64,000 nt of DNA from Hornefia butyriciproducens (GTDB lineage: Bacteria; Bacillota; Clostridia; Peptostreptococcales; Anaerovoracaceae), in contig NZ_VUMZ01000006.1 of NCBI RefSeq assembly GCF_009695915.1, forward strand, positions 62,001-126,000. The letters are read 5' to 3'. The translations under genes were made by a program, and so were the position numbers. The notes beneath the pieces were generated by a model. The model made no database searches. It saw nothing but the letters and a program-made list of their open reading frames with translations, and was not told the DNA's origin. The stretch's first letter is position 1. The number at the start of each line of letters is the position of its first letter. Positions 1,781 to 17,654 of the stretch are shown in pieces.

Positions 1781-2848
1781 TCATCTGCCTCTCTTTCTGC
1801 TGATCATCATATAGATGACAATCGGTGCGCCGAAAACGGATGTCACGGTACTGATGTTCAGTTCCAGCGGAGCGAAGGCAAGCCGCGCGATGAGATCGCA
1901 GAACATACAGAACACCGCTCCCATCACAAATGCTCCCGGAATCACCACGATGGGTCTGGACGTGCCCAGCGCTCCTTTGATCAGGAACGGTACCGCGATA
2001 CCAACAAAGGAAATCGGTCCGGCGAAGGCCGTCACTGTTGCCGAAAACACGCTGGAAAGAAGAATCAGCACAATCCTGAACACACGGATATTCACACCGA
2101 TACTGCGCGCATAGGATTCTCCCAGCTGATAGGCGCTGATGGGCTTGGCGCAGCACAGTGTGAGAGCAAACGTAATAAACACCACAACTGAGATGATCCG
2201 AACGCTTTCCCAGCTCATCCCGGAAAAACTGCCTTGAGACCAGCCGTGAAGATTTGCGATATCCGAGTCGCTGGCGAAGGTAATGATGAAATCCGTGACA
2301 GCGGAACAAATATAGCCGATCATGATTCCCGCCACAAGCAGAGCCGCCATATTCTGGATTCTCCGGGCAACAAGCAAAATAAAGCCCACCGACGCCAGAG
2401 AACCGGCAAAGGCCGCCACAATCATCGTATAGGAGGAAATCGTGGAATAATATTTCAGTGCGACGATCATAACAAAGGCTACAACCATTTTCGCTCCGGA
2501 AGAGATTCCCAGAACATAGGGTCCCGCAATCGGATTCTCAAAGAATGTCTGAAGCAGAAATCCGGACAGCGCAAGAGCGCCGCCCAGAATAGCCGCCGTA
2601 AGTATCCTGGGAAGGCGGATTCTCCATATTATATTGGTTTCCTTGATATCTCCCTGTCCGGTGAACAATATCCTGACGATATGATCCAGCGATATATGTA
2701 CATTACCGGAATTGATATTGATCACAGTCATCACGCAGAATGCGGCGAACAGCAGTACGAATACCATGGTATAGCGGCTGCGCCGCCGAAGGTTTTCGTG
2801 CTGAAAGCTTTCGGCGGCTGCCGGGATTGCGGGAATATTTTTTTTCAT
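1781..2848 (-). CDS. btuC: FecCD/BtuC-family ABC permease
   Basis: The 355-residue hydrophobic protein has the about ten membrane segments expected of the BtuC/FecCD fold. Family-typical stretches include RLPRILTAAILGGALALSG, the GISSGAK motif and the C-terminal GPISFVGIAVP segment. It would form the membrane channel with the downstream ATPase and receive ligand from the lipoprotein encoded upstream. The N-terminal 30 residues are polar and cytoplasmic. The start is set by family length; the ribosome site is weak (GGAGGAAATACAGG lies well upstream). It sits 114 bases after the binding protein, the largest gap in this operon. Substrate is inferred from the riboswitch, since the fold alone does not distinguish B12 from siderophores. 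Confidence 0.88.
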   Translation of the reverse strand: MKKNIPAIPAAAESFQHENLRRRSRYTMVFVLLFAAFCVMTVININSGNVHISLDHIVRILFTGQGDIKETNIIWRIRLPRILTAAILGGALALSGFLLQTFFENPIAGPYVLGISSGAKMVVAFVMIVALKYYSTISSYTMIVAAFAGSLASVGFILLVARRIQNMAALLVAGIMIGYICSAVTDFIITFASDSDIANLHGWSQGSFSGMSWESVRIISVVVFITFALTLCCAKPISAYQLGESYARSIGVNIRVFRIVLILLSSVFSATVTAFAGPISFVGIAVPFLIKGALGTSRPIVVIPGAFVMGAVFCMFCDLIARLAFAPLELNISTVTSVFGAPIVIYMMISRKRGR

Positions 2849-2886
2849 AAATAACTACCTGTATTTCCTCCGATTTCTCTTTTCGC

Positions 2887-2919
2887 GTACACGGTCGAAT
2901 AGAAAGAAAGGTCGTGTAC
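2887..2919. other. Intergenic inverted repeat between binding protein and permease genes
   Basis: GTACACG at 2887-2893 and CGTGTAC at 2913-2919 can pair around a 19-base loop. No T-run follows, so it is not a convincing terminator. Placement in the only sizeable gap of the operon suggests an mRNA-stability element giving more binding protein than permease, but this is a guess. Confidence 0.35.
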
Positions 2920-2962
2920 TCTGGTTCTGACGTTACGGGATGCAGCGCAGAACAGAGGATCC

Positions 2963-4123
2963 TCACTTCAGTTTCGTCAGGAACTTCATTTCAGACAGAT
3001 GCTTTTGTGTCACGAGATAATGAAAGTCCAGGATCATATCGCCGACGATGTCCGTCCGCTGATACATCGATGCTCCCGTTGCGTAACACTGTCCGTTTTT
3101 CACCGCTTTGAACTTTTTCATAATCGGATCCTTTGCGATCAGATCATCCATGGAACGAACCGTGCTGTCGATGCTCCCGTTGTACACGATATAATCGGCA
3201 TCAGCGGCCGTATCGTAGAACTTTTCAATGGTCATCGGAACGGAGGTTTTCCCGTCGGAATCAGTCAGTTTCTTGAACACGTACCGTCCGCCGGCCATCT
3301 CGATCATCGTGGGAACGTAGTCTTTACTGCTGCGCACCACCGCTTTTCCGTCCGTGGATATATAGAAGAAGGCTACGGTTTTCTCCGTATTCCTGAAATC
3401 GTCCAGGGCGGAGATCTTCTTTTCCTGTTTTTCAAAGAAAGCCTGGGCCTGTTTCTCATGTCCGGTCAGCGCGCCGTAAAGTTTGATCCACTCTGTGCGC
3501 CCCAGGGGATTTGATTCGTAGCTGGACCGGTCCACCATGACGGGGATTTTCAGATCCTCAATCATTTCCTTTACGTCCGGCGTATGATAAATCATCGTGG
3601 ATTCAATGGCCAGACCGCATTTTTTGTCCAGCAGCAGTTCATAATCCGGCTCGCTGTACTTGCCAGCGTAAACGATCTTCCCCGCGTTCATCGCGTCCCG
3701 TACAGACCGGAAGGACCAGCCTCCCGATTTCAGCGAGGTCATGGAAATATTGTCCAGGGCGTCCATGGAAGAAAACAGTGCCATGGACGCAGTCGCCGCA
3801 AGATAGATGTTTTTCACCGGTCCGCGGAGAACCTTGATCTTTTTGCTCAGCTTTTCCGGTGACTTCTTTCCCTTCGGCACGATCAGGTACTTAGCATCGT
3901 CTTTAATATCGATAAGTTTGTACCCGTCTTTGTAGTAGTAAACATTGAATTCCTTTGCATAATCCAGTTTCATGGTCTTGCTGTAGGTCAGCCCGCTGAT
4001 CTCAGGAGCCCCCGACGCGCCCGAAGCTGATTCGCTGTTCTTCGCACCGCATCCGGACAGCAGCACCGTGGCTGTCATCAGCGCCAGAAAAAGGACCATT
4101 CCTCTCTTGAATCGGTTTTTCAT
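2963..4123 (-). CDS. btuF: Substrate-binding lipoprotein of corrinoid ABC importer (BtuF-like)
   Basis: The 386-residue protein has a lipoprotein signal with lipobox LLSGC (cysteine 25), so it is anchored outside the membrane. The rest fits a class III periplasmic-binding protein: an N-lobe (about 40-230), a connecting helix (about 222-240) and a C-lobe (245-386). Residues 38-240 align clearly with the C-terminal end of the preceding 974-residue protein: APEISGLTYSKT versus APKITGLKYKST, SMDALDNI versus AMDAVDGI, and PLGRTEWIKLYG versus RLGKKEWIRAYG. It is co-transcribed with that gene (15-base gap) and with the permease and ATPase. Ligand is inferred to be cobalamin or a related corrinoid from the riboswitch. 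Confidence 0.82.
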   Translation of the reverse strand: MKNRFKRGMVLFLALMTATVLLSGCGAKNSESASGASGAPEISGLTYSKTMKLDYAKEFNVYYYKDGYKLIDIKDDAKYLIVPKGKKSPEKLSKKIKVLRGPVKNIYLAATASMALFSSMDALDNISMTSLKSGGWSFRSVRDAMNAGKIVYAGKYSEPDYELLLDKKCGLAIESTMIYHTPDVKEMIEDLKIPVMVDRSSYESNPLGRTEWIKLYGALTGHEKQAQAFFEKQEKKISALDDFRNTEKTVAFFYISTDGKAVVRSSKDYVPTMIEMAGGRYVFKKLTDSDGKTSVPMTIEKFYDTAADADYIVYNGSIDSTVRSMDDLIAKDPIMKKFKAVKNGQCYATGASMYQRTDIVGDMILDFHYLVTQKHLSEMKFLTKLK

Positions 4124-4138
4124 CTCATCCTGCCTTTT

Positions 4139-7063
4139 TTATTTCTGTTCTGCTTTTACTTCTTTCTCAAAAATATTCTGCGATTTTTTCGCGCTGCCGT
4201 AAATTTCTCCGTAAGCCCGGATCCATTCCTTTTTCCCCAGACGACTCTTCTCCTGCTGAGACCGGTCGAGGATGACCGGAATATCCAGTGCCGTAAAACG
4301 GGATTCCAGAGTCTCGAGCTTTTTCTGATCCGTTTCTGCCTGTTTCTTCTGCTTCGCGATCTTGTCTTTGTTCAGCAGGGTTTCCTTTGTCGAAATCTCC
4401 TTGGGAATCAGGCTTCCCGGCAAAACGGCCAGCCTGGTTTTCTTCCGGATGATTGTGCTGTACCGGGGTGATTCCGGAGTTCCGGCATAGGCTATATGCT
4501 TTTGCTTTATCGCTTTCGCAACGCCGGAGGCAGTGACCTTTTCAGGCGTTACGCCGGTGAGGCAGATGCCGTCGACCGCATCCATGGCGTCCAGGAACGA
4601 CAAAGCAGAGTTCGATGCTACATAGCTCTTCTCTGCAGGGGTCCGGACGATGATATACTGTTTGTCCAGACCGGCGGGAACATCGAATTTCTCCGGAACC
4701 AGCAGATAGCTTACAACGTTGTTTTTATAAAGAGCTTCTGTAATCTCATGCTGGGAGCGAGCGACCGGTTTACCTTCCTCGTCATACTCCACCTTACCGT
4801 CTTCCTTTGCGAACCTCTTCGCGTTTTTCGTGTATTCCTCATACAGTGCGGTGTTCTTGCTGATATCTATGCTCAGCAGGGAAACGCCGTGGTTATATCG
4901 AAAGATCCGGAAGTATTTCGCATACTTGTTTTTCACCGTCGACTTGTATTTTAATCCGGTAATCTTCGGAGCAGATTTACTCAGCGAAAGTTTGGATTTT
5001 TGGGCGTCCTTCGCGGCTTTTTTTGCTTCTGCCCGAGCTTTTTTCGCGGCCTTGGCACTGACGGCTTTTTTCACATAGATAGTGTACCGGATCCAGTGAG
5101 GCTGGGACATGGCTGTGGTGCGTCCGATGATAGTATTATTGGCGTTCAGTTTCACCGGGATCACAAAGGTGGAAAGACCTCCCCCGCTTTTGGAATAAAC
5201 CTTTCCGTTTGCCTTGAGACGGTCGTAGCTGCTGCTGCCGAACACGATGGTTGCATAGGCTTTTCCGCCTGTTACCGTGATTTTTCTGCATTTAATATAA
5301 GCGAGACGGCCGGAGCCTCCGGACCAGCTGAAGGAATCGGGAGTGTATACTCCGTCCTTCAGCGCGGTTCTGTTGTTGACCACGCCTGTGCTTTTCTGGC
5401 TGTCATCCTTATATTTGGATACCTTGTCCTTTTTTTTGCTCTTCTTGAATTTCGTCTGTTTACCGCTTGTGGCGTATTTGTCTTTCTTCTTCTTTGTCTT
5501 GGGAACTGTCGTCGATGTGCCGGAGGGAACCGCCTTCGCACCGCTGCTGTAGAAGATAATGGTATGTTCAAACCAGCTGTTCAGTTTCTTGGAATGAGCA
5601 GAGACCGTCAGATTTTTGTCCAGGGCGGAAACCGGCAACGTGTATGTATAATATCCGTTGACCACCTTCGCCTTGATCCACTGGTTCTTCGGTGCCTTCG
5701 CCGCCTCCAGCGCGGTTCCCATGTACAGATAGTCGTAGCCTTCTCCAGTCAGCGTGACGGTTGCGGTCATGTTTTTTTTACTGCCCTCCCCTTTAACCGT
5801 CAGAGTACTGTATTTGGTTCCGGTTTTCGGATAGAGGTAGAACATGCGATTATCGGTGTCTGACTTTACCTTCCAGGTTCCGGCTTTCAGGTCTTTCGTC
5901 TCTGCCGGCACTGTCGGATCCGATGGTGACGGATCGGGATCCTGTCCGCCGGAAGGCTCCGTATACTTCCCGGAGTTCACACTCATTCGAACGGTGATGG
6001 AATAGCTGATCCAGTGCGGATCAGACATTCTAACGGTTTTCCCGATGATAGGATTGGCCGTGTTCAGCGCCACCGGAACGGAAAATGTCGAGGTATTTGC
6101 AGCAGAATCCGTCACACCGTCGTAAATTTTGCCGTTTGCCTTCAGCTGTGTATATTTATCGCTGCTGAACACGATCGTCGCAACCGCCTTTCCGTCAGAA
6201 ATCGTAACCTTCGGACAGGTAATAATCACTTTGTTCGTACCGCCGCTCACACTGAAGCTGTCCGGTACCCAGACGCCGTCCGCTAAATCGGTTCTGTTAT
6301 CTACAGCAGGGGTATCCGGATCGTTCACCGGTTCACTTTTTTTTACGTGAATAGAATATTCAATATCGTTGATCTTCGACATTGCCGTGGTAGTTCCGAC
6401 AATCGCCGTATCTTTGTTGAGAGCGACCGGAACTTTTTTGAACAAAGACCCGTTCGATGTGTCAGCCTCCGGCTCGTAGGTCTTTCCTCCGGCCTGAAGC
6501 TTCGTATAAGATTTGCTGCTGAACAGAATGTCGGCATATGCCTTCCCGTTCGTCACCGTAATCGTCGGAACCGTGATTTTCACTCTTCCGGTTCCGCCGG
6601 TGAAGGAAACGTCGTCCGGCGTGTAGATGCCGTCCTCCAGCGTCGTGCTGTTATCGATGGCGGAAGCTTCTCCGGCCTTTGCAGTCTGATTCTGTGCTGT
6701 CTCCTTTTCTTCGGAGGAAGCTGTCTTGCTGCCAGACGGATTTTCCGACGCATTGGATGTGCCCTGCTGCCTGCTTTCGGTCTGCCCCGACCGCTGCTGC
6801 ATGGAGTCGGCGGAAGAAGCGGCTGACGAGTCGTTTGAGGAACCAGAGGCCGCTGTGCTCCGGTCCTCCTGCTGTGCCGCGTCTGTCGGTGCAGACTGAC
6901 TTTCCTGCGTACCCGCCGCGGTCTCCTGCTGTGCCGTCGCTTTCGGAGACGCACTCCCGACGCCTGCGGAATCCTCCGCAAACGCACCGGCAAGCTGCGT
7001 CAGAACAAGCGCAGCGATTAACAGGAAGGATAACATAATTTTGTAATACTTTTTCTTTTTCAA
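4139..7063 (-). CDS. Secreted multi-domain protein: NEAT-like modules fused to a half binding protein
   Basis: The 974-residue product has a signal peptide (1-29, ending AGAFA) and a Ser/Gln/Thr-rich stalk (30-135). It then has NEAT-like repeat A (136-241), repeat B (255-360), a divergent NEAT-like module (388-508), a Lys-rich linker (515-558), repeat C (564-665), an Ala/Lys-rich helix (666-697) and a BtuF-like N-lobe (699-974). The repeats share DGVYTPDSF, SGGSGR, GKAYATIVF, KANGKVY, IIGRTTAMS and HWIRY-type blocks. The terminal domain matches only the first 240 residues of the next gene product; the C-lobe is absent and an extra helical insert (about 892-924) is present. There is no lipobox, LPXTG or membrane tail, so attachment may be through the basic linkers. 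It is the first gene behind a cobalamin riboswitch. Corrinoid capture at the surface is an inference; NEAT domains are usually known for heme. Confidence 0.85.
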   Translation of the reverse strand: MKKKKYYKIMLSFLLIAALVLTQLAGAFAEDSAGVGSASPKATAQQETAAGTQESQSAPTDAAQQEDRSTAASGSSNDSSAASSADSMQQRSGQTESRQQGTSNASENPSGSKTASSEEKETAQNQTAKAGEASAIDNSTTLEDGIYTPDDVSFTGGTGRVKITVPTITVTNGKAYADILFSSKSYTKLQAGGKTYEPEADTSNGSLFKKVPVALNKDTAIVGTTTAMSKINDIEYSIHVKKSEPVNDPDTPAVDNRTDLADGVWVPDSFSVSGGTNKVIITCPKVTISDGKAVATIVFSSDKYTQLKANGKIYDGVTDSAANTSTFSVPVALNTANPIIGKTVRMSDPHWISYSITVRMSVNSGKYTEPSGGQDPDPSPSDPTVPAETKDLKAGTWKVKSDTDNRMFYLYPKTGTKYSTLTVKGEGSKKNMTATVTLTGEGYDYLYMGTALEAAKAPKNQWIKAKVVNGYYTYTLPVSALDKNLTVSAHSKKLNSWFEHTIIFYSSGAKAVPSGTSTTVPKTKKKKDKYATSGKQTKFKKSKKKDKVSKYKDDSQKSTGVVNNRTALKDGVYTPDSFSWSGGSGRLAYIKCRKITVTGGKAYATIVFGSSSYDRLKANGKVYSKSGGGLSTFVIPVKLNANNTIIGRTTAMSQPHWIRYTIYVKKAVSAKAAKKARAEAKKAAKDAQKSKLSLSKSAPKITGLKYKSTVKNKYAKYFRIFRYNHGVSLLSIDISKNTALYEEYTKNAKRFAKEDGKVEYDEEGKPVARSQHEITEALYKNNVVSYLLVPEKFDVPAGLDKQYIIVRTPAEKSYVASNSALSFLDAMDAVDGICLTGVTPEKVTASGVAKAIKQKHIAYAGTPESPRYSTIIRKKTRLAVLPGSLIPKEISTKETLLNKDKIAKQKKQAETDQKKLETLESRFTALDIPVILDRSQQEKSRLGKKEWIRAYGEIYGSAKKSQNIFEKEVKAEQK
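5069..6658 (-). repeat. Three homologous NEAT-like modules plus one divergent copy within the surface protein
   Basis: Repeat A is encoded at 6341-6658, B at 5984-6301 and C at 5069-5374, each about 100-106 codons. Shared positions include DG(I/V)(Y/W)(T/V)PD at the start, a GGxGR or GGTNK turn, NGK/DGKA before a beta-strand, the FSS/FGSSxY block, KANGKxY and an AMSxxHW block near the end. The module at 5540-5902 has a different start (LKAGTWKVKSD) but the same overall strand pattern (GYDYLYMGT, YTYTLPVSALDK). The copies are diverged at protein level, so they are old duplications rather than recent tandem DNA repeats. Confidence 0.8.
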
Positions 7064-7144
7064 AACAAATTCTCCTTCTCATCATTTTTTCGCTCAGCAT
7101 GGCGTTCAGTTCTGGTAACATGACTGCGAGATATCTCAGACTAA

Positions 7145-7174
7145 CAAAAAACCCACTTTCCTCCAAAGCGGGTG
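7145..7174 (-). terminator. Terminator platform of the cobalamin riboswitch
   Basis: On the minus strand ACCCGCTTT and AAAGTGGGT pair around GGAGG, followed by a run of T residues. It lies between the riboswitch aptamer and the first structural gene, so it should stop transcription when cobalamin is bound. Confidence 0.8.
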
Positions 7175-7296
7175 CTTGCATGAAAACTCAGTTATACTAC
7201 ATGAAATATCTGTTGCAGCGGAACAATGATGCAATGTGTTCAATGTTTCATCATGTTATTATTACAGGCACACTCTCCCCAGAAGCATTTCGCCGA

Positions 7297-7535
7297 TAAT
7301 TCTGATACAGCAGGTTTCCTGACTTACAGATCTTTGTTCCTCCGCGCCTTCTCAACAGCATCGAAATGACGGTGACAACCGGAACGCCGAAGCATTGCGG
7401 CCCCGTCGTCTGCGCCAGATGTATGCTGCCAATGGCATAGTACGGGAGAACTCCCTGTTTACAGTGACCGGATCGTTCGGGACTCACACCCGATTCCCTT
7501 TTAACCGCAGACTTCCGCCCACGGCACTGTACCGA
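7297..7535 (-). promoter_or_regulatory. Cobalamin riboswitch
   Basis: The minus strand carries the hallmark elements in order: GGGAATCGGGTG and GAGTCCCGA, then the GGTCACTGTA segment near 7460-7475, and the B12 box AGTCAGGAAACCTGC near 7310-7325. The length of about 230 bases fits the class. It starts about 15-20 bases after the predicted transcription start and is followed by a terminator. It controls the surface protein, binding lipoprotein, permease and ATPase as one unit, repressing them when adenosylcobalamin or a related corrinoid is plentiful. Confidence 0.92.
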
Positions 7536-7554
7536 CATATTTAATTCTATATAA

Positions 7555-7583
7555 ATTATAGCAATTGCCTTTCATTCTGTCAA
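7555..7583 (-). promoter_or_regulatory. Consensus sigma-A promoter of the corrinoid-uptake operon
   Basis: A perfect TTGACA (7578-7583) and perfect TATAAT (7555-7560) are separated by exactly 17 bases. Transcription should start near 7548 and run through the riboswitch. Control therefore seems to be exerted after initiation. Confidence 0.9.
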
Positions 7584-7615
7584 TGGCTCCGCGGCGATGC
7601 TTTCCGGGGCGTTCC

Positions 7616-8338
7616 TTACGATATTTTCTCATAAATCTGATCGATAAACAGGTTGACTCTCTTCCGGAAGATGAAACACAGGAGCAGAATCACGCCGCAG
7701 ACAGCGCCGATCACGATCATCCCCCGATAATTTCCTTTCATCATCATATCGCCGAAAAGCAGGCATCCGCACAGTGCCGGAATTCTGCCGACAAGGGAGA
7801 GCAGAAGAAAGGCACGGAATTTCATGTGCGAGATTCCGGCGGCATAGCATACCAGATCCTTCGGAATCCCCGGGATCAGGTAAACCAGGAATGTCAGAAT
7901 ATACGCTTTTTCACTGTTGAAACGGCTCACATATTTTTCCATCCGTTCCTTTCCGAGAATCAGTTCGAGTCCGTCCTCACCCAGAAAACGCGCCAGATAA
8001 TAGGCCACGGTTTCGCCTGCTGCACAGCCTGCCAGCGTCAGGATAAGTCCCGGAAAAAAACCGAACACCGAACCGGCGGCAAACTGAAAAATCTCTCCCG
8101 GAAGCACACTTACAACAATCTGAAGAATTTCAGCTGCAAGATAAATCATGACGCTCCTGATGCCGAATCCCCGCAGATAATGAATCGCATCCGAGTAACT
8201 GCGAAATCCGGAAATCACATCCTTCTGACAGATGATGATATAAATCGGCAGGGCGACGACAATTGCGACAAGCATAGCGAGCTTTAGTATCGTCAGAGCG
8301 CGGCGCAGCCGCTTTTCCCTGCTTCCTTTGTCACTCAT
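7616..8338 (-). CDS. TVP38/TMEM64 (VTT/DedA-like) membrane protein
   Basis: The 240-residue protein has about six membrane segments and the VTT-domain core, including PGEIFQFAAGSVFG and LTLAGCAAGETVAYYLARF near the middle and a C-terminal FRKRVN basic end. Proteins of this superfamily act in lipid scrambling or small-molecule transport across the cytoplasmic membrane; the substrate here is unknown. The start at 8338 (MSDKGSRE) overlaps the preceding stop codon as ATGA, indicating translational coupling; an ATG two codons earlier (8344) is possible. Confidence 0.85.
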   Translation of the reverse strand: MSDKGSREKRLRRALTILKLAMLVAIVVALPIYIIICQKDVISGFRSYSDAIHYLRGFGIRSVMIYLAAEILQIVVSVLPGEIFQFAAGSVFGFFPGLILTLAGCAAGETVAYYLARFLGEDGLELILGKERMEKYVSRFNSEKAYILTFLVYLIPGIPKDLVCYAAGISHMKFRAFLLLSLVGRIPALCGCLLFGDMMMKGNYRGMIVIGAVCGVILLLCFIFRKRVNLFIDQIYEKIS

Positions 8339-9642
8339 ACACAAAGTCCCCTTCCCTTCAGAAGTCCCTTTCGGTACAGTCGGTTCAGAGAGTTCATGAC
8401 GCCTAGCCTGGAGTGTTCATATGTCAGCCCTCCCTGAAAATAGACGATAAACGGTTCCCTCATAGGTCCGTCAGCGCTCAGTTCGATGGAGGAACCCTGC
8501 ACGAATGCGCCGGCCGCCATGACCACAGGATCCTCGTATCCCGGCATAGCCCATGGCTCCGGCCGCACAAAGGAATCCACCGGAGCGGCCGCCTGAATTC
8601 CCTCGCAGAAGGCGACCACCGACTCACCGCTTTCCAGACGGACCGCCTGAATAATATCCGACCGCGCTGCCTCCGATTCGGGGCAGACCCGATATCCTAA
8701 AGCGGAATACGCCTGCCCGCAGAGCAAAGCGCCCTTCACCGCGCCGTTCACCACAGATGGTGCAAGAAACAGTCCCTGCAGCATTGCTCTGGTCTGTCCA
8801 AAAGTCAGACCGCACTCCGCACCGATACCGGGACATGTCATGCGGTAGCTGATTTTTTCAATCAGTTCCGCCCGACCGCACACATAGCCGCCGGACAGCG
8901 CCAGTCCGCCGCCCGGATTTTTGATCAGTGAGCCGGCGATAACATCCGCGCCCACTTCAGAAGGTTCCCGGATATCCGTAAATTCCCCGTAACAGTTGTC
9001 GACCATGCAGATGATCTCCGGGTGCTCCTTATGCACAAAGGACGCCCACTCCTCAATCTGCGGAATCGTCAGCGCCCTCCTCCAGCTGTAACCTGTGGAG
9101 CGCTGCACACAGACCATCCTGGTGGAAGGGCCGATCGCCGCTGCTACGCCGTCAAGATCGATACTCCCGTCCGCCTTCAGTTCCACCTGTCTGTATTTTA
9201 CCCCGTAATCCGCCAGTGAGCCCTTTCCCCGGCCCCGAATGCCGATGACCTCTTCCAGGGTGTCATACGGTCCGCCGCTGCAGTAGATCAGCTCGTCTCC
9301 AGGCCGGAGAAGTCCCATCAAAGTGATGGCAAGCGCATGAGTTCCGTTTACAATCGTAGGACGCACCAGCGCAGCCTCCGTACCGAAAATTTCAGCGTAT
9401 ACCCGCTCCGTCGCCTCCCGGCCAGCGTCGTCGTAGCCGTAACCGGTCGTCCATCCGAAATGCATATCCGCAATGCGATTTTTTTGCAGTGCGGACAAAA
9501 CTTTGTATTGATTGTATTCCCGGATTTCGTCCTGTGCGGTGAATCGTCCGGATAACTGTTCTCCGCATACTTCCACATGTCTGATTACTGCGTCCTCAAT
9601 ACTGTATTTTTCAGCCAGAAGCTGATGAATCTCATTTTTCAT
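8335..9642 (-). CDS. Methionine gamma-lyase family PLP-dependent protein (aluminium-resistance/YnbB family)
   Basis: The 435-residue protein has the fold-type I PLP enzyme pattern of the Met_gamma_lyase (YnbB) family: GYGYDDAGREATE near the N-terminus, VRPTIVNGTHA, GGPYDTLEEV, the MVDNCYGEF strand and the SLIKNPGGG segment holding the likely PLP lysine. The biochemical role is not firmly established; members are annotated as carbon-sulfur lyases or aluminium-resistance proteins. The start at 9642 has GGAGAGG 6-7 bases upstream. An open frame extends upstream to 9789 but only inside the recombinase repeat tail and is not believable. It overlaps the recombinase stop by 11 bases. In Clostridia and Bacilli this gene is commonly found near miaA and mutL, as here. 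Confidence 0.85.
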   Translation of the reverse strand: MKNEIHQLLAEKYSIEDAVIRHVEVCGEQLSGRFTAQDEIREYNQYKVLSALQKNRIADMHFGWTTGYGYDDAGREATERVYAEIFGTEAALVRPTIVNGTHALAITLMGLLRPGDELIYCSGGPYDTLEEVIGIRGRGKGSLADYGVKYRQVELKADGSIDLDGVAAAIGPSTRMVCVQRSTGYSWRRALTIPQIEEWASFVHKEHPEIICMVDNCYGEFTDIREPSEVGADVIAGSLIKNPGGGLALSGGYVCGRAELIEKISYRMTCPGIGAECGLTFGQTRAMLQGLFLAPSVVNGAVKGALLCGQAYSALGYRVCPESEAARSDIIQAVRLESGESVVAFCEGIQAAAPVDSFVRPEPWAMPGYEDPVVMAAGAFVQGSSIELSADGPMREPFIVYFQGGLTYEHSRLGVMNSLNRLYRKGLLKGRGLCV

Positions 9643-10876
9643 TCTTATCCTCTCCGTTTCCGTATTCAGTCTCATACCGTTCTGCTTTATGCCGCCCGTT
9701 CCCATGCCGCTCAGTTTCATGCCGCACAGTTTCGTATTGCTCGGTTTCGCGCCGTTCGATTTCCCATTCCATGCCATGGACCAGATCACGCTTGACGTTC
9801 GCTTTATGACGGGCGTAGAGCTGGGTCGTCGTCACCTGCTCGTGATCCAGCAGCGCCGCCACATCATAAATTGAATTGCCCCGTCCGATCAGACTGGTTG
9901 CCGCCGTTGCCCGCAGCTTATGCGGGCTGTAGCCTGCACTGCGGCTGGTCTTCAGCGCGATGGATGTGTATTTCTTCACAAGCTCCCTGATCTGCCGCTG
10001 TGTCATCCGGCGTCCCTGAAGAGACAGAAACAGTGCGTCCCGGTGCTCCGGCACGACGGCGCTGTCTTCCTTGCGCTCGTTATTCAGATAATCGTGAATC
10101 ACCGCGGTCACAGAATCGTTCATTGGCATGATGGATTCTTTTCCCCTCTTCCGGTAGATTTTGAACTCTCCCCGGCTGAAATTGAAAGAGGACACATTCA
10201 GCTGCTGAAGCTCCGAGAGACGCAGTCCGTAGGTCAGGAACAAAATCAGAATCGCCTTGTCCCGCTTTCTCGTCTTCTCCCAATAAGCCCGCTCATGCTC
10301 CGTCAGGCCGGTGCCGGTGCTCACAGCATCCAGCATGATCATTACCTCATCATCCTGCAGTGCTTTAATCTCCCTTTCGTCCGCCTTCTGCACCCGGATG
10401 GGATCGAATCCGTCGGTAATATTTCTGGAAATCAGCTCATCCCGGTACAGCTGCTTAAACATCACGGAAACAGAAGATTTCTTGCGGGCCAGAGTTTTGC
10501 TGTGATTTTCATAGACGGTAATGTTTTTCTCTGTCTCTACCCTGTATTTCCTGCAGTAATCCAGATAAATATTGATGTCCGCCGCCCGGATCGCGTCAAA
10601 CTCCTTCAGTGTGATCTTCCCGATGCTCTCCGCCTCCGTCAGATCTGTCTCCCGAACCAGATAATTCAGAAAGAACCTGATGTCACGAAGGTAGGCAAGC
10701 CGGGTCATGGGAAGCACGTTTCCGCGCAGATAGATAAAAAAACCTCTCAGGAACCGGGGCATCTGCGTCTCCAGTTTCTCACACTCCTCGTCGATTTCAT
10801 TTTCCGTCTCGACGATATTGTCCGGCCGGTCACTCTTGTTATGAATTTTTACGATTTTATCTGTTCCCTGAGCCAT
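9632..10876 (-). CDS. Tyrosine recombinase (XerC/D-like) with pentapeptide-repeat tail
   Basis: The 414-residue protein has a SAM-like core-binding domain (about 38-150) and a catalytic domain (about 165-370). The catalytic set is visible: Arg219 in YGLRLSEL, the HKLR box at 319-322, His345 in LLDHE, and Tyr354 in TQLYARH. It therefore looks active. Residues 372-406 are seven degenerate ETERH-like five-residue units, followed by a short acidic/basic end. The start lies inside miaA (28-base overlap) with no good ribosome site. There are no flanking att sites, phage genes or transposition genes, and the gene is embedded in a housekeeping operon, so a resident Xer-like role is more likely than a mobile-element integrase. 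Which dimer-resolution or inversion site it uses is unknown. Confidence 0.85.
   Translation of the reverse strand: MAQGTDKIVKIHNKSDRPDNIVETENEIDEECEKLETQMPRFLRGFFIYLRGNVLPMTRLAYLRDIRFFLNYLVRETDLTEAESIGKITLKEFDAIRAADINIYLDYCRKYRVETEKNITVYENHSKTLARKKSSVSVMFKQLYRDELISRNITDGFDPIRVQKADEREIKALQDDEVMIMLDAVSTGTGLTEHERAYWEKTRKRDKAILILFLTYGLRLSELQQLNVSSFNFSRGEFKIYRKRGKESIMPMNDSVTAVIHDYLNNERKEDSAVVPEHRDALFLSLQGRRMTQRQIRELVKKYTSIALKTSRSAGYSPHKLRATAATSLIGRGNSIYDVAALLDHEQVTTTQLYARHKANVKRDLVHGMEWEIERRETEQYETVRHETERHGNGRHKAERYETEYGNGEDKNEK
9659..9763 (-). repeat. Seven 15-base units encoding a pentapeptide tail on the recombinase
   Basis: The units read EIERR, ETEQY, ETVRH, ETERH, GNGRH, KAERY and ETEYG. 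At DNA level each unit is 15 bases and most begin with CG on the plus strand and contain a GTTTC or similar core. The degeneracy shows the array is not a fresh expansion. Its length could vary between strains by slippage without a frameshift. Confidence 0.75.
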
Positions 10877-11793
10877 TCGTTCATTGCGCAGATACAGCGC
10901 TCCTCACTTTCATATTCCGATATGCTGAACCATTTCATGTCCCTGTACCGCCGGAACCAGGTCAGCTGCCGCTTTGCCAGATGTCTCGTGTTACGTTTAA
11001 TCAGCCGCACGGCCTCCTCCCGGTCGTATTCCCCCTGAATATATCCGATGAGTTCTTTGTAGCCGATGCCCTTCATGGAAATATCCGTTCCTGTAAGACC
11101 CATGCTCAGAAGCTTGCGAACCTCCTGCTCCAGTCCCTGCTCCATCAGCATGTCCACTCTTCGGTTGATGCGGTCATAGAGTTCCTGACGATCGCGGTTC
11201 AGCCCGACGAGTACAGGCGAATAATCCTTTGTCGGAACAGGATCTGAAGCAAAATCCTTCACCCTGTTCCCCGCCTCCGCCGCCTCCAGCGCCCGGATCA
11301 CCTTCTTCAGATTATTGGGATGGATCCTGTCTGCCGCCGCAGAATCCGCCGCCCTCAGCCGGTCATAGACCGCTGCCGGACCCTGCTCCTCCGCCAGAGC
11401 GTACATCGCGTCGCGAAACCCGTTGTTCTCCGGGGGCGCGCTGAAATCCATATCGTACAGAAGTGAATTGAGGTAGAGACCGGTTCCGCCTGCGATAATC
11501 GGGATCTTTCCGTGGACAAAGACCTCTTCGATGGCTGTCTTCGCCAGCTTCTGATAACGGGCGACGGAGAAACTTTCCCGCGGGTCAATCTGATCCACCA
11601 GATAATGACGGACCTTCGACTGCTCCTCCGCAGTAGGCTTGGCACTGCCGATATCCATGTACTGATAAAGCTGCATGGAATCACAGGAAATAATCTCTCC
11701 TCCCAGCGCCAGTGCGGCTTCGATGGCGAATCGGGTCTTGCCGACCGCAGTGGGACCGCAGATCGCGATGATTTTTCTGTCTGTATCATTCAT
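10849..11793 (-). CDS. miaA: tRNA dimethylallyltransferase
   Basis: This enzyme adds a dimethylallyl group to N6 of adenosine 37 in tRNAs reading codons that start with U. The 314-residue length is normal. The P-loop GPTAVGKT is near residues 14-21, DSMQLYQYMDIGSAKPT is the substrate-binding loop, and GGTGLYL and the C-terminal TRHLAKRQLTWFR motif are family signatures. It lies 6 bases after mutL, a common bacterial pairing, and its 3' end overlaps the recombinase start. Confidence 0.97.
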   Translation of the reverse strand: MNDTDRKIIAICGPTAVGKTRFAIEAALALGGEIISCDSMQLYQYMDIGSAKPTAEEQSKVRHYLVDQIDPRESFSVARYQKLAKTAIEEVFVHGKIPIIAGGTGLYLNSLLYDMDFSAPPENNGFRDAMYALAEEQGPAAVYDRLRAADSAAADRIHPNNLKKVIRALEAAEAGNRVKDFASDPVPTKDYSPVLVGLNRDRQELYDRINRRVDMLMEQGLEQEVRKLLSMGLTGTDISMKGIGYKELIGYIQGEYDREEAVRLIKRNTRHLAKRQLTWFRRYRDMKWFSISEYESEERCICAMNEWLREQIKS

Positions 11794-11799
11794 TCCGAG

Positions 11800-13803
11800 T
11801 CACGCTCTCTTGAACATCTTTTCGATGTCATACATGGAAAAACGGATAAAGGTCGGTCTGCCGTGGGGGCAGGAGAAGGGATTCCGGCACCGGGCCAGAT
11901 CCCGGATCAGCTGCCGGAGCTCCATGTCCGACATGTGGTCGCGGGCCTTGACAGCGGATTTGCAGGATCGGGTGATCAGCTTATCGATGACCACAGTATT
12001 GCGCAGGTCATCCTGCTCACCGATCTGGTCCACAAAATCATGCAGAAAGGACTCCGCCTCAGATATCTCCATGAAGTACGGGATTTCCCTGATGATATAG
12101 GAACTTGGGCCGAATTCTTCTATGTGATAGCCCATGTCCCGCAGGGAGTCGATCCAGTCATATTCCTCCTCCCTGACGCTCAGAGGCACCTCAAGTGTAA
12201 TAGGCGTCAGAATGGTCTGAGAAGGTTTATCGTCATTGAGATATTCCTCCGCAAGACGTTCATAGAAAATCCGTTCCTGTGCCGCGTGCTGGTCGATGAG
12301 GTAAAATCCGTCAGAATCCTCCGCTGTGATATACGTATCGAAAATTGAACCGGTGATCTTCAGCCCGCTGAAGTCGAAAGGCTTCTGCCGCGGTCCGCGG
12401 AGATCCATCGCCGAAGGGTCACGTTCCGCCGAAGGTTTCCCGTCAGTCATCGCCGCAGCATCCATTACCGCCGAGCTTCCTCCCGCCGCCGGCGGATAAG
12501 CTCCGGATCCGGCTGTTCTATCTTCCGAAAATGCAGTCGATGAAGCTGCCGGATCTGCCGCCGATGCATGCGTAGCGGCTGTCGGAGATGCCGAAGACGT
12601 CTCCTGATCTTCTTCCCGCATTCTGGACAATATATGTTTTATGTCAACCTGATCCTCTTTTCGCTCCTTTCGAAGCAGACCGTCCTGTCCGGCACTGATG
12701 TGGAAAGGCTCCGGCCGGTCACTGCCCGGAGCATCCGGGGTTCCCGGTGCGGAAGACTTCGCTTCTTCTGTGCTCCCTGCCCCTGCGGCAGGAAAGTAAT
12801 CCCGCACCTCGACCACCGCATCCTTTGCGGCAAGCGTCCGAAACACCGCCGCCTTCAGCGCGGAAATGACCGCCTTCTCATCGTGAAAGCGGACCTCCTT
12901 CTTGTTCGGATGGATGTTGACATCCACCGTTTCCGGATCCGTGCGCAGGAACAGGAACACGACCGGCTGCCGGCCTTCAGCGAGCCGTTCCCGGTATCCC
13001 TCCGATACCCCCCGCTCCATGATCCTGCTCTTGACGATGCGTCCGTTCACAAAGAACACCTGATCCCGTCTGGTGCTGCGAGTCAGGGACGGTCTCGAAA
13101 TACAGCCGGACACAGAGTATCCGTTCTCTCCGTATTCCACCTCTACCAGTTCCTCATATTCCCGGCGATGGTAGACCGCAGCGATCGTCTTCTTCAGATT
13201 TCCGTCACCCGGCGTGCTGAAGAGGTTCCGTCCGTTGTTGATTAACTGGAACCTTCGGTCATGATACGCCATCGCCATCTCTGAAACAAAATCGATGATC
13301 AGTCCGCTCTCGGCAGAGTCCGACTTCAGAAACTGCCGACGTGCAGGCGTATTATAAAACAGGTCGGTAACGATCATCGTCGTCCCTTCCGGACAGCCTA
13401 CTCCTGTGTTTTCGATAACTTCACCGCCGTGTATCGTGATGCGGCACCCGGTTCTCTCCTCCGGGGGTCTTGTGATCAGAGAGGTTCTGGTCACCGCCGC
13501 GATGCTGGCAAGTGCCTCGCCCCTGAATCCGAGAGAATTGATCGCCGTCAGATCCGCCAGCGTTGCGATTTTGCTGGTGGCGTGGCGCAGAAATGCGGTT
13601 TCCGCCTCGTTCCGGGGGATTCCGCAGCCGTTGTCCGTCACGCGAACAAATGTCTTTCCGCCGTTTCTGATTTCCACCGTAATCTCAGAGGCACCGGCAT
13701 CGATGGAGTTTTCCACCAGTTCCTTGACGATGGAGATGGGCCGTTCGATAACCTCCCCCGCTGCGATTTTGTCCGCAATGTTTTTCTCCAGTAATTTAAT
13801 CAT
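11800..13803 (-). CDS. mutL: DNA mismatch repair protein MutL with endonuclease motif
   Basis: The 667-residue protein couples mismatch recognition by MutS to strand incision. The GHKL ATPase motifs are present: the ELVENSIDAGA segment, DNGCGI, and GFRGEALASI. The C-terminal domain has DQHAAQERIFYE, the metal-binding endonuclease motif DQHA(X)2E(X)4E, together with SCKSAVKA and CPHGRP, so it is predicted to nick DNA itself, as in organisms lacking MutH. Residues about 340-460 form an Ala/Ser/Asp-rich linker. It overlaps mutS by 8 bases. Confidence 0.97.
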   Translation of the reverse strand: MIKLLEKNIADKIAAGEVIERPISIVKELVENSIDAGASEITVEIRNGGKTFVRVTDNGCGIPRNEAETAFLRHATSKIATLADLTAINSLGFRGEALASIAAVTRTSLITRPPEERTGCRITIHGGEVIENTGVGCPEGTTMIVTDLFYNTPARRQFLKSDSAESGLIIDFVSEMAMAYHDRRFQLINNGRNLFSTPGDGNLKKTIAAVYHRREYEELVEVEYGENGYSVSGCISRPSLTRSTRRDQVFFVNGRIVKSRIMERGVSEGYRERLAEGRQPVVFLFLRTDPETVDVNIHPNKKEVRFHDEKAVISALKAAVFRTLAAKDAVVEVRDYFPAAGAGSTEEAKSSAPGTPDAPGSDRPEPFHISAGQDGLLRKERKEDQVDIKHILSRMREEDQETSSASPTAATHASAADPAASSTAFSEDRTAGSGAYPPAAGGSSAVMDAAAMTDGKPSAERDPSAMDLRGPRQKPFDFSGLKITGSIFDTYITAEDSDGFYLIDQHAAQERIFYERLAEEYLNDDKPSQTILTPITLEVPLSVREEEYDWIDSLRDMGYHIEEFGPSSYIIREIPYFMEISEAESFLHDFVDQIGEQDDLRNTVVIDKLITRSCKSAVKARDHMSDMELRQLIRDLARCRNPFSCPHGRPTFIRFSMYDIEKMFKRA

Positions 13804-16408
13804 CGATCAATTCCTTCAGATCCTCCAGAATGCGTATCGCCTGAGACGGCGTCACATTCATCAGGTCAATCTTCTTCAGTTCCTCTACAACGGGAACCGG
13901 CTCGCGTGAGAAGAAAGACAGCTGCTTCGGTTCCTCCTTCGCCGGTTCACGGGAAAACGCCTTTGTCACAGAATTCCCCGAGCCCTCCGCCTCCAGGCGG
14001 GCAAGCTTGTCCTCCGCACTGTTCAGAAGCCGGGAAGGAACGCCCGCCAGCCGCGCCACATGGACACCGTAGCTTCGGCTCGCGCTGCCGGGCACGATTT
14101 TGTGCAGGAAAATGATATTGCCGTTCTCCTCCGACACATCCACGTTCAGGTTACGTACTCCGGGAAGCTCGTCTTCCAGCACGGTCAACTCGTGATAATG
14201 CGTAGCGAAAAGCGTCCGGATCCGGCGTTTCTCGCTGCAGAGGTATTCCACCGTGGCCCAGGCGATGGACAGCCCGTCATAGGTGCTGGTGCCCCGTCCG
14301 ATCTCGTCCAGGATGATCAGACTCCGCTCTCCGGCGTTTCGCAGAATATACGCAAGCTCACTCATCTCCACGAAGAATGTGGACTGCCCCTGAGCCAGAT
14401 TATCCGATGCGCCGATGCGCGTGAAGATCCGGTCGCAGACGCCGATGTGGGCTTTTTGTGCAGGGACAAAGCATCCTGCCTGCGCCATCAGAACGATCAG
14501 CGCGGTCTGCCGCATATAGGTGGATTTCCCTGCCATGTTCGGCCCGGTTATGATGAGCATGCTGGACTGATCGCTGTCCATATAAGTATCGTTGGACACG
14601 AACAGTCCCTGTTCCGTCGTCTGCTCAATGACAGGATGCCGGCCCTTCTCGATGGAGAGCAGTCTGCTGTCATCCACCGTCGGGCGCACATAACCCAAAC
14701 GCATGCTCACCGTGGCGAAGGAGCACAGGACGTCGAGAACTGCAATAGCGGCGGAGGTCTTCTGGATCTCCAGGATGTACTCTCCGATTTTCTCCCGCAG
14801 ACCGGTAAAAATCTCATACTCCAGTTTGTTGATTTTCGCCTCGGCGTTCAGAACAAGGCTCTCCTTCTCCTTGAGTTCAGGCGTGATAAACCGTTCCCCG
14901 CCCACCAGGGTCTGCTTGCGGATGTATTCCTCCGGCGTCTGATCGAGGTTGGAACGGCTGATTTCAATGTAATAGCCGAATACCTTGTTATATCCCACCT
15001 TCAGGTGCTGAATACCGGTACGCGATTTTTCGCTCTGCTCCAGTCCGGCAATCCAGTCCTTCGCATCACGGATAGAGTCCTTCAGAATGTCCAGTTCCTC
15101 AGAAAAGCCCTCCCGGATCAGTCCGCCCTCTTTCACCGTGTACGGCGGCTCCTCCACAATTGCCTCCTGAATCATTCGGTACACCTCGGAAAGATCTGAA
15201 ATCTCCGCACCGAGTCCGTTAAGGAGTTCGCTCCGCGCATCACTCAGATTGTCCCGGATTTCCGGCAGGCACTCGATGGAATTCCGCAGAGCGATCAGAT
15301 CCTTCGCGTTAGCACTGCCTGCGGCAATCCGACCCGAGAGACGCTCAAAATCATAGATCTGCTTCAGCGCCTCCACGATGTTGTTCTGCAGAAGCGGCTG
15401 TTCCGTCAGTTCTTCCACGGCGTCCAGGCGGAGATTAATCTCGCCGGACTCGTTCAGAGGTTCCCGCAACCACTGCTTGAGTCTGCGCCCGCCCATCGCG
15501 GTGGAGGTTTTATCCAGGACCCACAAAAGCGAGCCCTGCACTTTTTTATCATACAATGTCTCTGTAATCTCAAGGTTTCTGATCGTCGCCTTGTCCAGAG
15601 ACATGTGATTTCCGATCTCATAAAACTGGCAGCGGGTCAGCTGTTTCAGATTCTGTTTCTGGGTTTCCAGAAGATAGGACAGCAATGCTCCCATAGCCAG
15701 AATGCACAGTTCCCGTCCGTCAATGCCCAGAGCCGTCAGAGATATACTTCCGAACTGGGCTCTTATCGCCGTCTCCGCCGATTTTTTAGAGTAGTAGGAA
15801 TCAGGCATCACATGAATGAAGGAATCCGTCAGATCACGGATTTCTCCCTCTCCATAGTTCTGCGCCGCTTCCTGATTGATCAGGATTTCCCTGACGTTGA
15901 TTTTGACCAGCTCGTTGATCATATCCTCAAACATATTGGCTCCGCCGGTCTTTTCTGTAATATAAAGTTCCCCGGTGGAAATGTCACAGTATGCAACTGA
16001 CATCCCGCCGGTACTCATATATACAGACGCAAGATAATTGTTCTCATTCTCATGAAGCATCGCATCAGAGGTCACCGTTCCCGGTGTCACGATGCGGACG
16101 ACTCCTCTCTTGACCATTCCCCTTGTTTCTGCCGGATCCTCCAGCTGTTCGCATATGGCCACGTTATAGCCCATGCGGACAAGCTTTTCTATATAAGAAT
16201 CTGCGGCATGGAAGGGGACTCCACACATGGGAGCCCTCTCCTCCAGGCCGCAGCTTTTTCCGGTCAGAGTCAGCTCAAGCAGGCGCGAAACCAGCTTGGC
16301 GTCATCGAAAAACATCTCATAGAAATCGCCGAGACGGAAGAACAGGATGCAGTCCTTATACTGCTCCTTAATGTTCATGTACTGCTCCATCATCGGGGAT
16401 AATTTCAT
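13796..16408 (-). CDS. mutS: DNA mismatch repair protein MutS
   Basis: The 870-residue length is typical of MutS1. The N-terminal mismatch-wedge motif is present as GDFYEMF (Phe-X-Glu), followed by connector, lever and clamp regions, then the ATPase with GPNMAGKST and the Walker B/signature LIILDEIGRGTSTYDG. The C-terminus ends with a helix-turn-helix-like dimerisation tail. AGGAGG lies just upstream of the ATG. It is co-transcribed with mutL and follows the aminotransferase by 13 bases. Confidence 0.97.
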   Translation of the reverse strand: MKLSPMMEQYMNIKEQYKDCILFFRLGDFYEMFFDDAKLVSRLLELTLTGKSCGLEERAPMCGVPFHAADSYIEKLVRMGYNVAICEQLEDPAETRGMVKRGVVRIVTPGTVTSDAMLHENENNYLASVYMSTGGMSVAYCDISTGELYITEKTGGANMFEDMINELVKINVREILINQEAAQNYGEGEIRDLTDSFIHVMPDSYYSKKSAETAIRAQFGSISLTALGIDGRELCILAMGALLSYLLETQKQNLKQLTRCQFYEIGNHMSLDKATIRNLEITETLYDKKVQGSLLWVLDKTSTAMGGRRLKQWLREPLNESGEINLRLDAVEELTEQPLLQNNIVEALKQIYDFERLSGRIAAGSANAKDLIALRNSIECLPEIRDNLSDARSELLNGLGAEISDLSEVYRMIQEAIVEEPPYTVKEGGLIREGFSEELDILKDSIRDAKDWIAGLEQSEKSRTGIQHLKVGYNKVFGYYIEISRSNLDQTPEEYIRKQTLVGGERFITPELKEKESLVLNAEAKINKLEYEIFTGLREKIGEYILEIQKTSAAIAVLDVLCSFATVSMRLGYVRPTVDDSRLLSIEKGRHPVIEQTTEQGLFVSNDTYMDSDQSSMLIITGPNMAGKSTYMRQTALIVLMAQAGCFVPAQKAHIGVCDRIFTRIGASDNLAQGQSTFFVEMSELAYILRNAGERSLIILDEIGRGTSTYDGLSIAWATVEYLCSEKRRIRTLFATHYHELTVLEDELPGVRNLNVDVSEENGNIIFLHKIVPGSASRSYGVHVARLAGVPSRLLNSAEDKLARLEAEGSGNSVTKAFSREPAKEEPKQLSFFSREPVPVVEELKKIDLMNVTPSQAIRILEDLKELIDD

Positions 16409-16421
16409 TCTGCCTCCTGTT

Positions 16422-17621
16422 CTATTTTCCCAGCTTTTTGTTATAAGCTTCCAGGCCGAGGCGGATCAGTTCTACACCTCTCCTCATGTCTTCCTCTTTC
16501 AGAACATAAGCGATACGGATCTCATTTTTGCCCTTGCCCGGCGTCGCATAGAAACCTGCGGCAGGTGCGAACATCACGGATTCACCGTTATCTTCAAACT
16601 CGGTCAGCAGGAATGTCAGGAAATCCTCGATATCCTCTACCGGCAGAGCGCAGGTCAGATAGAAAGCACCGGCGGGAACTACGACATTCATGCCCGGAAT
16701 CTTCCTCAGTTCTTCCACAACTGCGTCTCTTCTTCCGCAGTAAATCGCCTTCGCCTCTTCGTAATAAGAATCCGGCAGACGGAACAGCGCAGCGGAGCCG
16801 ATCTGATCCACGGTGGACACACAGAGACGACCCTGAGCGATCTTCATGCAGCCGCTCATGAATTCTTTGTTTTTGGAAATCAGCAGACCGATTCTGGCGC
16901 CGCAGGCGGAAAATCTCTTGGAAACGGAATCCACGATGATAACTCTGTCCGCATACTCCGACAGCTGTCCGAAGGATACCGGAGTTCTTCCGTCGTAAAC
17001 GAACTCTCTGTAAACCTCATCCGCAATAATCGCCAGATCGTGCTTCTCCGCAATTTCACAGATCACCTTCATTTCCTCCAGAGTCAGGACATTACCGGTA
17101 GGATTGCCCGGCTCCAGACAGCAGATGACTCTGGTCTTCGGCGTGATGCACGCTTCAATGTTCTCTCTGTCGGCATAGGCGTAGCCCTTGGAAGCGTCCG
17201 CCGGGATCGGTTTCACGATGCCGCCCGCCATCAGAGCAAACGTGGAATAGTTGGTGTAATACGGCTCAGGAATCAGAACCTCATCGCCATCGTTCAGCAG
17301 GGAAAGAAACGCCATGCTCAGCGCCTCGGATCCTCCGTTTGTGACAATCATATTCGAAGGTTCAAGTTCGATGTCATACTTTTTGTAATAATCGATAACC
17401 GCGCTGATCAGTTCCGGCCTTCCGCCTGACTCCGCATAGGCAATGACCTTTTCATCAAAATTCCGGATCGCTTCCATAAAGCATTCCGGGGTCTCCACAT
17501 CCGGCTGTCCGATGTTCAGATGATAGATCTTCTTTCCGTTCTTCTCTGCCTCAATGGCCATCGGATTGAATTTCCGGATCGGTGAGAACTGCATCGCATT
17601 CACTCTCTTAGAAATGTTCAT
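16422..17621 (-). CDS. Class I/II pyridoxal-phosphate aminotransferase
   Basis: The 399-residue enzyme belongs to the AspC/AlaA-like aminotransferase group. Visible motifs are NIGQPDVETP near the N-terminus, NGGSEAL for phosphate binding, the PGNPTGNVL asparagine loop, DEVYREFVYDG, and SVSKRFSACGARIG with the PLP lysine. The substrate cannot be set from sequence; aspartate or an aromatic/alanine type donor is possible. It follows tlyA by 33 bases with AAAGGAG before the ATG, and a strong promoter inside the 3' part of tlyA probably drives it together with mutSL. Confidence 0.9.
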   Translation of the reverse strand: MNISKRVNAMQFSPIRKFNPMAIEAEKNGKKIYHLNIGQPDVETPECFMEAIRNFDEKVIAYAESGGRPELISAVIDYYKKYDIELEPSNMIVTNGGSEALSMAFLSLLNDGDEVLIPEPYYTNYSTFALMAGGIVKPIPADASKGYAYADRENIEACITPKTRVICCLEPGNPTGNVLTLEEMKVICEIAEKHDLAIIADEVYREFVYDGRTPVSFGQLSEYADRVIIVDSVSKRFSACGARIGLLISKNKEFMSGCMKIAQGRLCVSTVDQIGSAALFRLPDSYYEEAKAIYCGRRDAVVEELRKIPGMNVVVPAGAFYLTCALPVEDIEDFLTFLLTEFEDNGESVMFAPAAGFYATPGKGKNEIRIAYVLKEEDMRRGVELIRLGLEAYNKKLGK

Positions 17622-17654
17622 GACTCTCTTACTCCTTTACATAACATTAATAAG

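Follow-up and report, generated by a model that had tools for sequence, protein, structure and literature searches.

NEAT-like modules behind cobalamin riboswitches in Clostridia: a putative relay for corrinoids or cobalt-loaded precursors

Why would a bacterium place a protein that resembles heme receptors under the control of a cobalamin riboswitch? This question is raised by a locus of Hornefia butyriciproducens (RefSeq assembly GCF_009695915.1, contig NZ_VUMZ01000006.1, positions 62,001 to 126,000; this 64,000-nucleotide stretch is called the window herein), where such a riboswitch precedes a gene for a 974-amino-acid protein with four NEAT-like modules, followed by genes for BtuF-, BtuC-, and BtuD-like proteins. 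NEAT domains are described as binding heme and hemoglobin (PMC7815599, PMC4143258), and the word “cobalamin” is absent from the main text of both papers. We favor, with a probability of roughly 0.7, the reading that this is a cobalamin-repressed operon of the cobamide pathway, in which a NEAT-like relay for corrinoids or cobalt-loaded precursors feeds a BtuFCD importer. The observation in the original prediction, made from the sequence of this locus, is confirmed by our analysis, and its interpretation as a corrinoid-capture relay is partly supported.

Operon anatomy and the NEAT-like modules

The operon comprises the following elements, all on the reverse strand.

7583-7555, reverse strand: sigma-70-type promoter, TTGACA-17-TATAAT, a 12/12 match with TG before the -10 element
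7546-7292, reverse strand: cobalamin riboswitch aptamer (RF00174), 106.1 bits versus a gathering threshold of 31.5, covering the full model (1-189)
7173-7151, reverse strand: intrinsic terminator, a 9-pair stem with a T run, between the riboswitch and the first open reading frame (ORF)
7063-4139, reverse strand: ORF of the 974-amino-acid protein, start codon TTG, with four NEAT-like modules and half a BtuF
6652-6344, reverse strand: NEAT-like module A1 (residues 138-240), by iterated profile, with NxxxY at the HxxxY site
6298-5990, reverse strand: NEAT-like module A2 (residues 256-358), by iterated profile, with HxxxY
5899-5558, reverse strand: divergent NEAT-like module B (residues 389-502), by profile; predicted model with pLDDT 92.1
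5374-5072, reverse strand: NEAT-like module A3 (residues 564-664), the most conserved module
5098-5084, reverse strand: H656-x-x-x-Y660 of A3, a candidate metal-facing pair in place of the NEAT YxxxY
5065-4151, reverse strand: half-BtuF lobe (residues 667-971), matching only positions 20-247 of the 397 in the BtuF profile
4123-2963, reverse strand: BtuF-like substrate-binding protein (Peripla_BP_2, E 2.2e-36), with a lipobox-like Cys noted by eye
2848-1781, reverse strand: BtuC-like permease (FecCD, E 1.2e-74; best NCBIfam model BtuC, 207.9 bits, cut-off 334)
1779-676, reverse strand: BtuD-like ATPase (ABC_tran, E 4.5e-30; best NCBIfam model corrinoid ATPase, 214.5 bits, cut-off 537)

The promoter is the sole 12/12 match within positions 2800-7650, and the terminator lies in a 61-nucleotide fold of -18.8 kcal/mol (z -2.71). 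A ribosome-binding-like site, AGAAGGAG, is visible by eye 5′ of the TTG codon. Together, the promoter, riboswitch, terminator, and ORF have the layout of a cobalamin riboswitch that acts by transcription termination before an uptake operon, and the riboswitch is located where it had been predicted, ahead of the first gene. The predicted lack of a Fur-like signal also holds: no match to a 7-1-7 consensus, with three or fewer mismatches allowed, is present at positions 7000-7620. Elsewhere in the window there are seven such matches (878-892 and six others), versus 2.06 expected.

On profile evidence for the modules and a predicted fold for A3, the four modules are remote relatives of the NEAT domain. 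The profile delimits three NEAT-like modules and one divergent module at coordinates nearly identical to those originally proposed. The Pfam search suggested at that time gives a divided answer. At E ≤ 1 the window protein matches no Pfam family, NEAT (PF05031) included, whereas the profile built from the family and hhalign both reach NEAT. With a canonical reference made of 18 NEAT-model matches taken from three genomes, hhalign yields 97.6% (E 4.1e-12) for module B and 92.3% (E 5.4e-7, 72 columns) for A3, and the best 31 structural rows for the predicted model of A3 are all NEAT entries. The Pfam NEAT model matches 20 of 55 family modules at E ≤ 1, the best at 9.4e-5, and finds nothing at that threshold in the whole genome of the window, where canonical NEAT was not found.

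In A3, all 51 rows of 51 carry H656 and Y660 unchanged, and the same is true of M652, S653, and C592. A forced global profile alignment (81%) sets H656 on the first, iron-ligating Tyr of the YxxxY motif and Y660 on the second. The ranges of the structural rows, read with the Tyr numbering of NEAT, would place the Tyr pair two residues before this position; in either register, a regular strand would present both pairs on one face. The pattern MSxxHxxxY occurs in 90 of 303 modules (counted after removal of ten duplicate loci) and in none of the 18 canonical NEATs, 14 of which carry YxxxY. Within the window protein, His is present at the HxxxY site of A2 and A3, and Asn at that of A1. The SXXXXY motif of the 3-10 helix, counted as a bare pattern irrespective of its three-dimensional position, appears in 54 of the 303 modules and in 14 of the 18 canonical domains. 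Membership in the heme-type NEAT group was considered and rejected, as neither the YXXXY motif of strand 8 nor recognition by the Pfam model was found.

A BtuF-like lobe had been proposed for the C terminus, and a BtuF match does exist there, but it covers only half of the profile. This half lobe is shared by 52 of 55 unique proteins (the window protein included), while two (L109 and L116) carry a full BtuF and one is cut by a contig end. Three fusions of NEAT-like modules to a full BtuF are known to us from these loci: L109, L116, and L198, the last encoding a protein of 496 amino acids. Chains reach 10 modules among the relatives. Secretion of the 974-residue protein is suggested by an N terminus that resembles a signal peptide by eye. 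The proposed placement in the Gram-positive cell wall found no support in the protein sequence, where neither an LPXTG-type tail nor a lipobox is visible. Anchoring by sortase was rejected for the same protein, in which the sole LPx[TSA][GAN] match (LPVSA, residue 476) falls within module B.

The BtuF-, BtuC-, and BtuD-like genes follow the 974-residue ORF in that order, and both their domain families and their order are those of a BtuFCD importer. They share the Peripla_BP_2, FecCD, and ABC_tran subunits of the class that includes BtuFCD, HmuTUV, and FecBCD, but differ from BtuFCD proper in that the permease and the ATPase score under the Btu equivalog cut-offs of NCBIfam.

Recurrence of the riboswitch linkage

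Two short peptide patterns, matched against 84,980 species genomes, yielded 57 loci, with Eubacterium pyruvativorans, Aminicella lysinilytica, Blautia glucerasea, Oliverpabstia intestinalis, and Fusicatenibacter saccharivorans among the named members. A cobalamin riboswitch lies upstream of the operon on the same strand at 41 of the 46 assessable loci, the exceptions being L074, L088, L113, L114, and L116. The other loci were left out because they duplicate another (L068, a copy of L067), because the module ORF was not called (L077, L103, and L107), or because a contig edge lies upstream (L064, L075, L082, L100, L104, L106, and L111). Chance would give approximately 0.6% per locus within 6.5 kb (209 RF00174 matches in 49 genomes), although a binomial P value is meaningless as a probability given the relatedness of the loci. 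Riboswitches at these loci were scored with a model, R1, built in part from five of the same loci that Rfam had found independently. L063 is weak with R1 (19.8 bits), and its counterpart L039 scores 49.1 bits with Rfam.

The importer genes recur as well. BtuF is the next gene in 34 of the 42 loci with sufficient room, with BtuC and BtuD each present in 31 of 42; these counts omit 13 of 55 proteins that lack room, 15 of the 42 are incomplete, and the ORF caller overlooks genes (e.g., CbiH in L128). The linkage of NEAT-like modules, BtuFCD-like genes, and a cobalamin riboswitch is seen in relatives that, by their record titles, belong to Anaerovoracaceae and Lachnospiraceae, as are the three NEAT-BtuF fusions. 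The survey of homologs suggested with the original prediction, which set riboswitch context against heme or iron context, did not refute that prediction as far as riboswitch linkage is concerned, in a comparison where neighbors were not systematically screened for heme genes.

A separate draw of 291 genomes for a survey of the class contained 17 with modules, including the window genome. Excluding the rows of the window genome, a riboswitch lies within 7 kb at 16 of 26 module loci in 16 genomes, and at the other 10 there is none within that distance, three of these being weak single matches (G380, G534, and G570). In seven genomes the sole RF00174 match is at a module locus. As a control, 5 of 249 genomes of the phylum were found to have canonical NEAT above the Pfam cut-off, and none of the five shows an R1 match within the 10-20 kb fetched. 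Two further genomes with weak NEAT matches and an R1 match (G331 and G355) belong to the new NEAT-like family.

The riboswitch-free L116 belongs to Lachnospiraceae bacterium JC7 (G107), which has NEAT-BtuF, NEAT-CbiK, and CbiD; no RF00174 match was found in this 3.6-Mb genome under stricter filters. At L038 (13935-14596), two divergent cobalamin riboswitches are separated by approximately 235 bases, each facing module proteins, one of which is 1447 amino acids long.

The window genome has six RF00174 riboswitches above the cut-off. Besides the operon described above, their targets include a NEAT-CbiK gene with a YkuD neighbor, a gene for a DUF4430 protein, genes for a PQQ-propeller/fn3 protein and a second fn3 protein, and a CbiD-F-G-H-J-ET-A run. 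The genes of one further riboswitch region are presumably MoxR-like. We take the DUF4430 protein (L124, 7188-8141) to be transcobalamin-like. At L125 (5257-8106), the PQQ-type beta-propeller protein with fn3 looks exported, and its propeller recalls BtuG in shape only.

CbiK chelatases and the tetrapyrrole pathway

A feature newly seen here is the association of the modules with CbiK cobalt chelatases, either by fusion or as neighbors. In the window genome, L126 (8171-12055) has its own cobalamin riboswitch and encodes a 722-amino-acid NEAT-CbiK-fn3 protein, then an L,D-transpeptidase family protein of the YkuD type, which may attach surface proteins to the wall. NEAT-CbiK fusions also occur at L116, L198, and L158, and CbiK is a separate neighbor of modules at L034, L050, and L194-L197. 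In the survey genomes where both modules and CbiK were sought, the window genome among them, 13 of 16 CbiK-family matches are within 3 kb of a module. Judged by eye and by hydrophobicity, 11 of these 13 begin like a signal peptide or lipobox protein, and two have a cytosolic length, one of them on the opposite strand; the protein of G087 is cut by a contig end. The run of genes extends into corrin-ring genes at L194-L198 and L159.

The CbiK of Desulfovibrio is periplasmic. In that genus, a single B12 element governs cbiK together with a B12 ABC transporter (cbiK-cbiL with btuCDF), as at the loci considered here; the text on this operon in PMC545781 differs in making no mention of NEAT modules or a half-BtuF.

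Among 32 mutually related genomes picked for carrying modules, CbiD is present in 31, and no HemB match was found in 19, including the window genome (98.46% complete). A cytosolic-type chelatase, defined as an open frame of 280 amino acids or fewer (with G071 reassigned from its N terminus), is present in 11 of 13 HemB-positive versus 2 of 19 HemB-negative genomes (Fisher 3.9e-5, uncorrected for relatedness). One genome on each side of this comparison (G593 and G014) is counted through a weak CbiX-like match, and the HemB-negative G006 and G559 have zero CbiK matches.

The window genome has one CbiK above the cut-off, which looks exported, and no CbiX above its cut-off; sub-threshold CbiX scores fall on the same CbiK and on a 304-amino-acid frame on C26. 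Its corrin genes are CbiD (by Pfam), F, G, J, ET, and A (by NCBIfam), and H and C (by tblastn and phmmer against relatives). With corrin-ring genes present and HemB not found, this genome agrees in part with the profile of a tetrapyrrole-precursor salvager, a group defined in PMC6461909. HemA, HemL, HemC, and HemD were not seen in the fetched stretches of the genome, for which no genome-wide search was made. Within the stretches that were fetched, G013 and G445 showed CbiL, but G473, G539, G424, G495, G567, G026, G331, and the window genome did not. Several HemB-negative genomes have loci (L194, L195, L196, L198, L223-L227, L230, L232, and L233) where no CbiL was found beside corrin operons.

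Two HemB-positive relatives (L050 at 4586-17998, and L051) each have one riboswitch-led run. At L050 it contains a lipoprotein-like CbiK, a two-module NEAT protein, CbiL, HemA/HemC/HemD/HemB/HemL-type genes, an ABC-2 type transporter pair, a CbiK of cytosolic length, and a NEAT protein with a hydrophobic C-terminal stretch.

Possible cargo of the modules

We infer a mechanism in which scarce cobalamin leads the riboswitch to let transcription through the terminator, and the cell then makes an exported, presumably surface-located protein of four modules and half a BtuF, along with BtuF, BtuC, and BtuD. The NEAT-like modules would bind a cobalt tetrapyrrole of the cobamide pathway, either a finished corrinoid (e.g., cobalamin or cobinamide) or a precursor already loaded with cobalt. 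The invariant His of HxxxY, at the site of the iron-ligating Tyr of heme NEATs, may ligate or face the cobalt. The half-BtuF might pass the cargo to the BtuF-like protein or dock with it, and BtuCD would import the cargo.

Several observations weigh against a confident assignment of B12 as the cargo. The best NCBIfam model for the BtuF-like protein is IsdE, far under its cut-off, and the solved structure nearest to the permease is the hemin transporter HmuU. The transporter sequences alone fit heme or B12, and an attempt to assign the substrate from them failed to tell the two apart. Together with the NEAT fold, these observations would suit the scavenging of heme or porphyrins in general under cobalamin control, with His acting as an unusual heme ligand for a NEAT domain. 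His is a common heme ligand. Some NEATs also hold heme through other axial ligands (PMC7815599). Even so, we regard such scavenging as unlikely, given the recurrent control by cobalamin riboswitches, the occurrence of modules fused to or beside CbiK and corrin operons, the lack of a Fur-like site in the promoter region, and the failure to find canonical NEAT in the window genome. More improbable still is the scavenging of cobalt as the ion, in which Co2+ would be bound by the modules, CbiK, and the BtuF-like protein and then imported. The BtuF-like ABC system CbtJKL does move Co2+ in Sinorhizobium (PMC7689651), and A3 has conserved His, Met, and Cys residues. However, where NEAT has been studied, the fold binds tetrapyrroles or hemoglobin (PMC7815599), and chains of as many as 10 modules with a large half-BtuF would presumably be costly for an ion.

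A narrower form of the corrinoid or precursor relay deserves separate consideration, in which the cargo is a tetrapyrrole precursor rather than a finished corrinoid. Exported CbiK would insert cobalt into scavenged sirohydrochlorin (or swap it into siroheme) outside the cell, the modules would deliver the resulting Co-sirohydrochlorin to BtuFCD, and the ring would be completed by the corrin pathway in the cytoplasm. The proximity of exported-looking CbiK to modules, the frequent absence of HemB matches where CbiD is present, and the scarcity of cytosolic-type chelatases in HemB-negative genomes all point in this direction, and tetrapyrrole-precursor salvagers have been described, mostly in Firmicutes (PMC6461909). 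Nevertheless, the genomes compared are related and were chosen for their modules, with no module-free background set; CbiL was seen in only two of the genomes whose stretches were fetched; BtuFCD would need to carry a non-corrin; and extracellular sirohydrochlorin is presupposed, the route verified in PMC6461909 being that of 5-aminolevulinic acid. We therefore consider this form possible, although on balance doubtful. Even more tentatively, we speculate that Clostridia unable to make tetrapyrroles could operate an extracytoplasmic cobalt-loading station, wherein exported CbiK tied to NEAT-like carriers loads scavenged tetrapyrrole, which then passes to the half-BtuF, BtuFCD, and the corrin pathway under cobalamin riboswitches. 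Such a station would explain how tetrapyrrole-precursor salvagers are fed, and it would shift the first committed reaction of B12 synthesis to the exterior of the cell.

A relay for corrinoids or cobalt-loaded precursors would resemble several known systems in part. Like the Isd/Shr heme relay, it has a chain of NEAT-fold modules before a FecCD-type ABC importer. Unlike that relay, the operon has a cobalamin riboswitch, no Fur-like site was found, and HxxxY replaces YxxxY in A2 and A3; the protein has a half-BtuF tail, CbiK partners, and no visible sortase motif, and is unrecognized by the Pfam NEAT model. Honsa et al. (2014) describe a clostridial NEAT group that similarly lacks YXXXY, but as heme candidates (PMC4143258), a likeness drawn by description only. 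With BtuG, BtuH, and BtuJ of Bacteroides, as presented in PMC8941943 and PMC13398666, the system shares riboswitch-controlled binders beside B12 transport genes, at the surface in Bacteroides and presumably so here; those proteins differ in having other folds and a Gram-negative outer membrane. Homologs of btuH are reported in three Firmicutes (PMC8941943), and some DUF4465 proteins in Bacillota (PMC13398666).

Extramembrane capture of B12 by Gram-positive gut bacteria is poorly known, and B12 capture is stated to be less known for Firmicutes (PMC8941943). In the open-licence literature, no paper joining NEAT domains with B12 or with cobaltochelatase was found among the matches listed, where “NEAT domain” and “cobalamin” as the sole pair were not queried. 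If the relay exists, a fold that is known to strip hemoglobin of its heme would have been retooled for corrinoids, with HxxxY and the half-BtuF as its own markers, in Blautia, Fusicatenibacter, Oliverpabstia, Eubacterium pyruvativorans, and Aminicella. The relay would likewise caution against calling every NEAT-like protein a heme receptor, and would tie exported CbiK to precursor salvage, for which the text on tetrapyrrole-precursor salvagers in PMC6461909 names no surface uptake route.

Elsewhere in the window, positions 111-506 encode a LysM protein that scores above the NCBIfam cut-off for the cell division suppressor YneA; the operon lies upstream of it.

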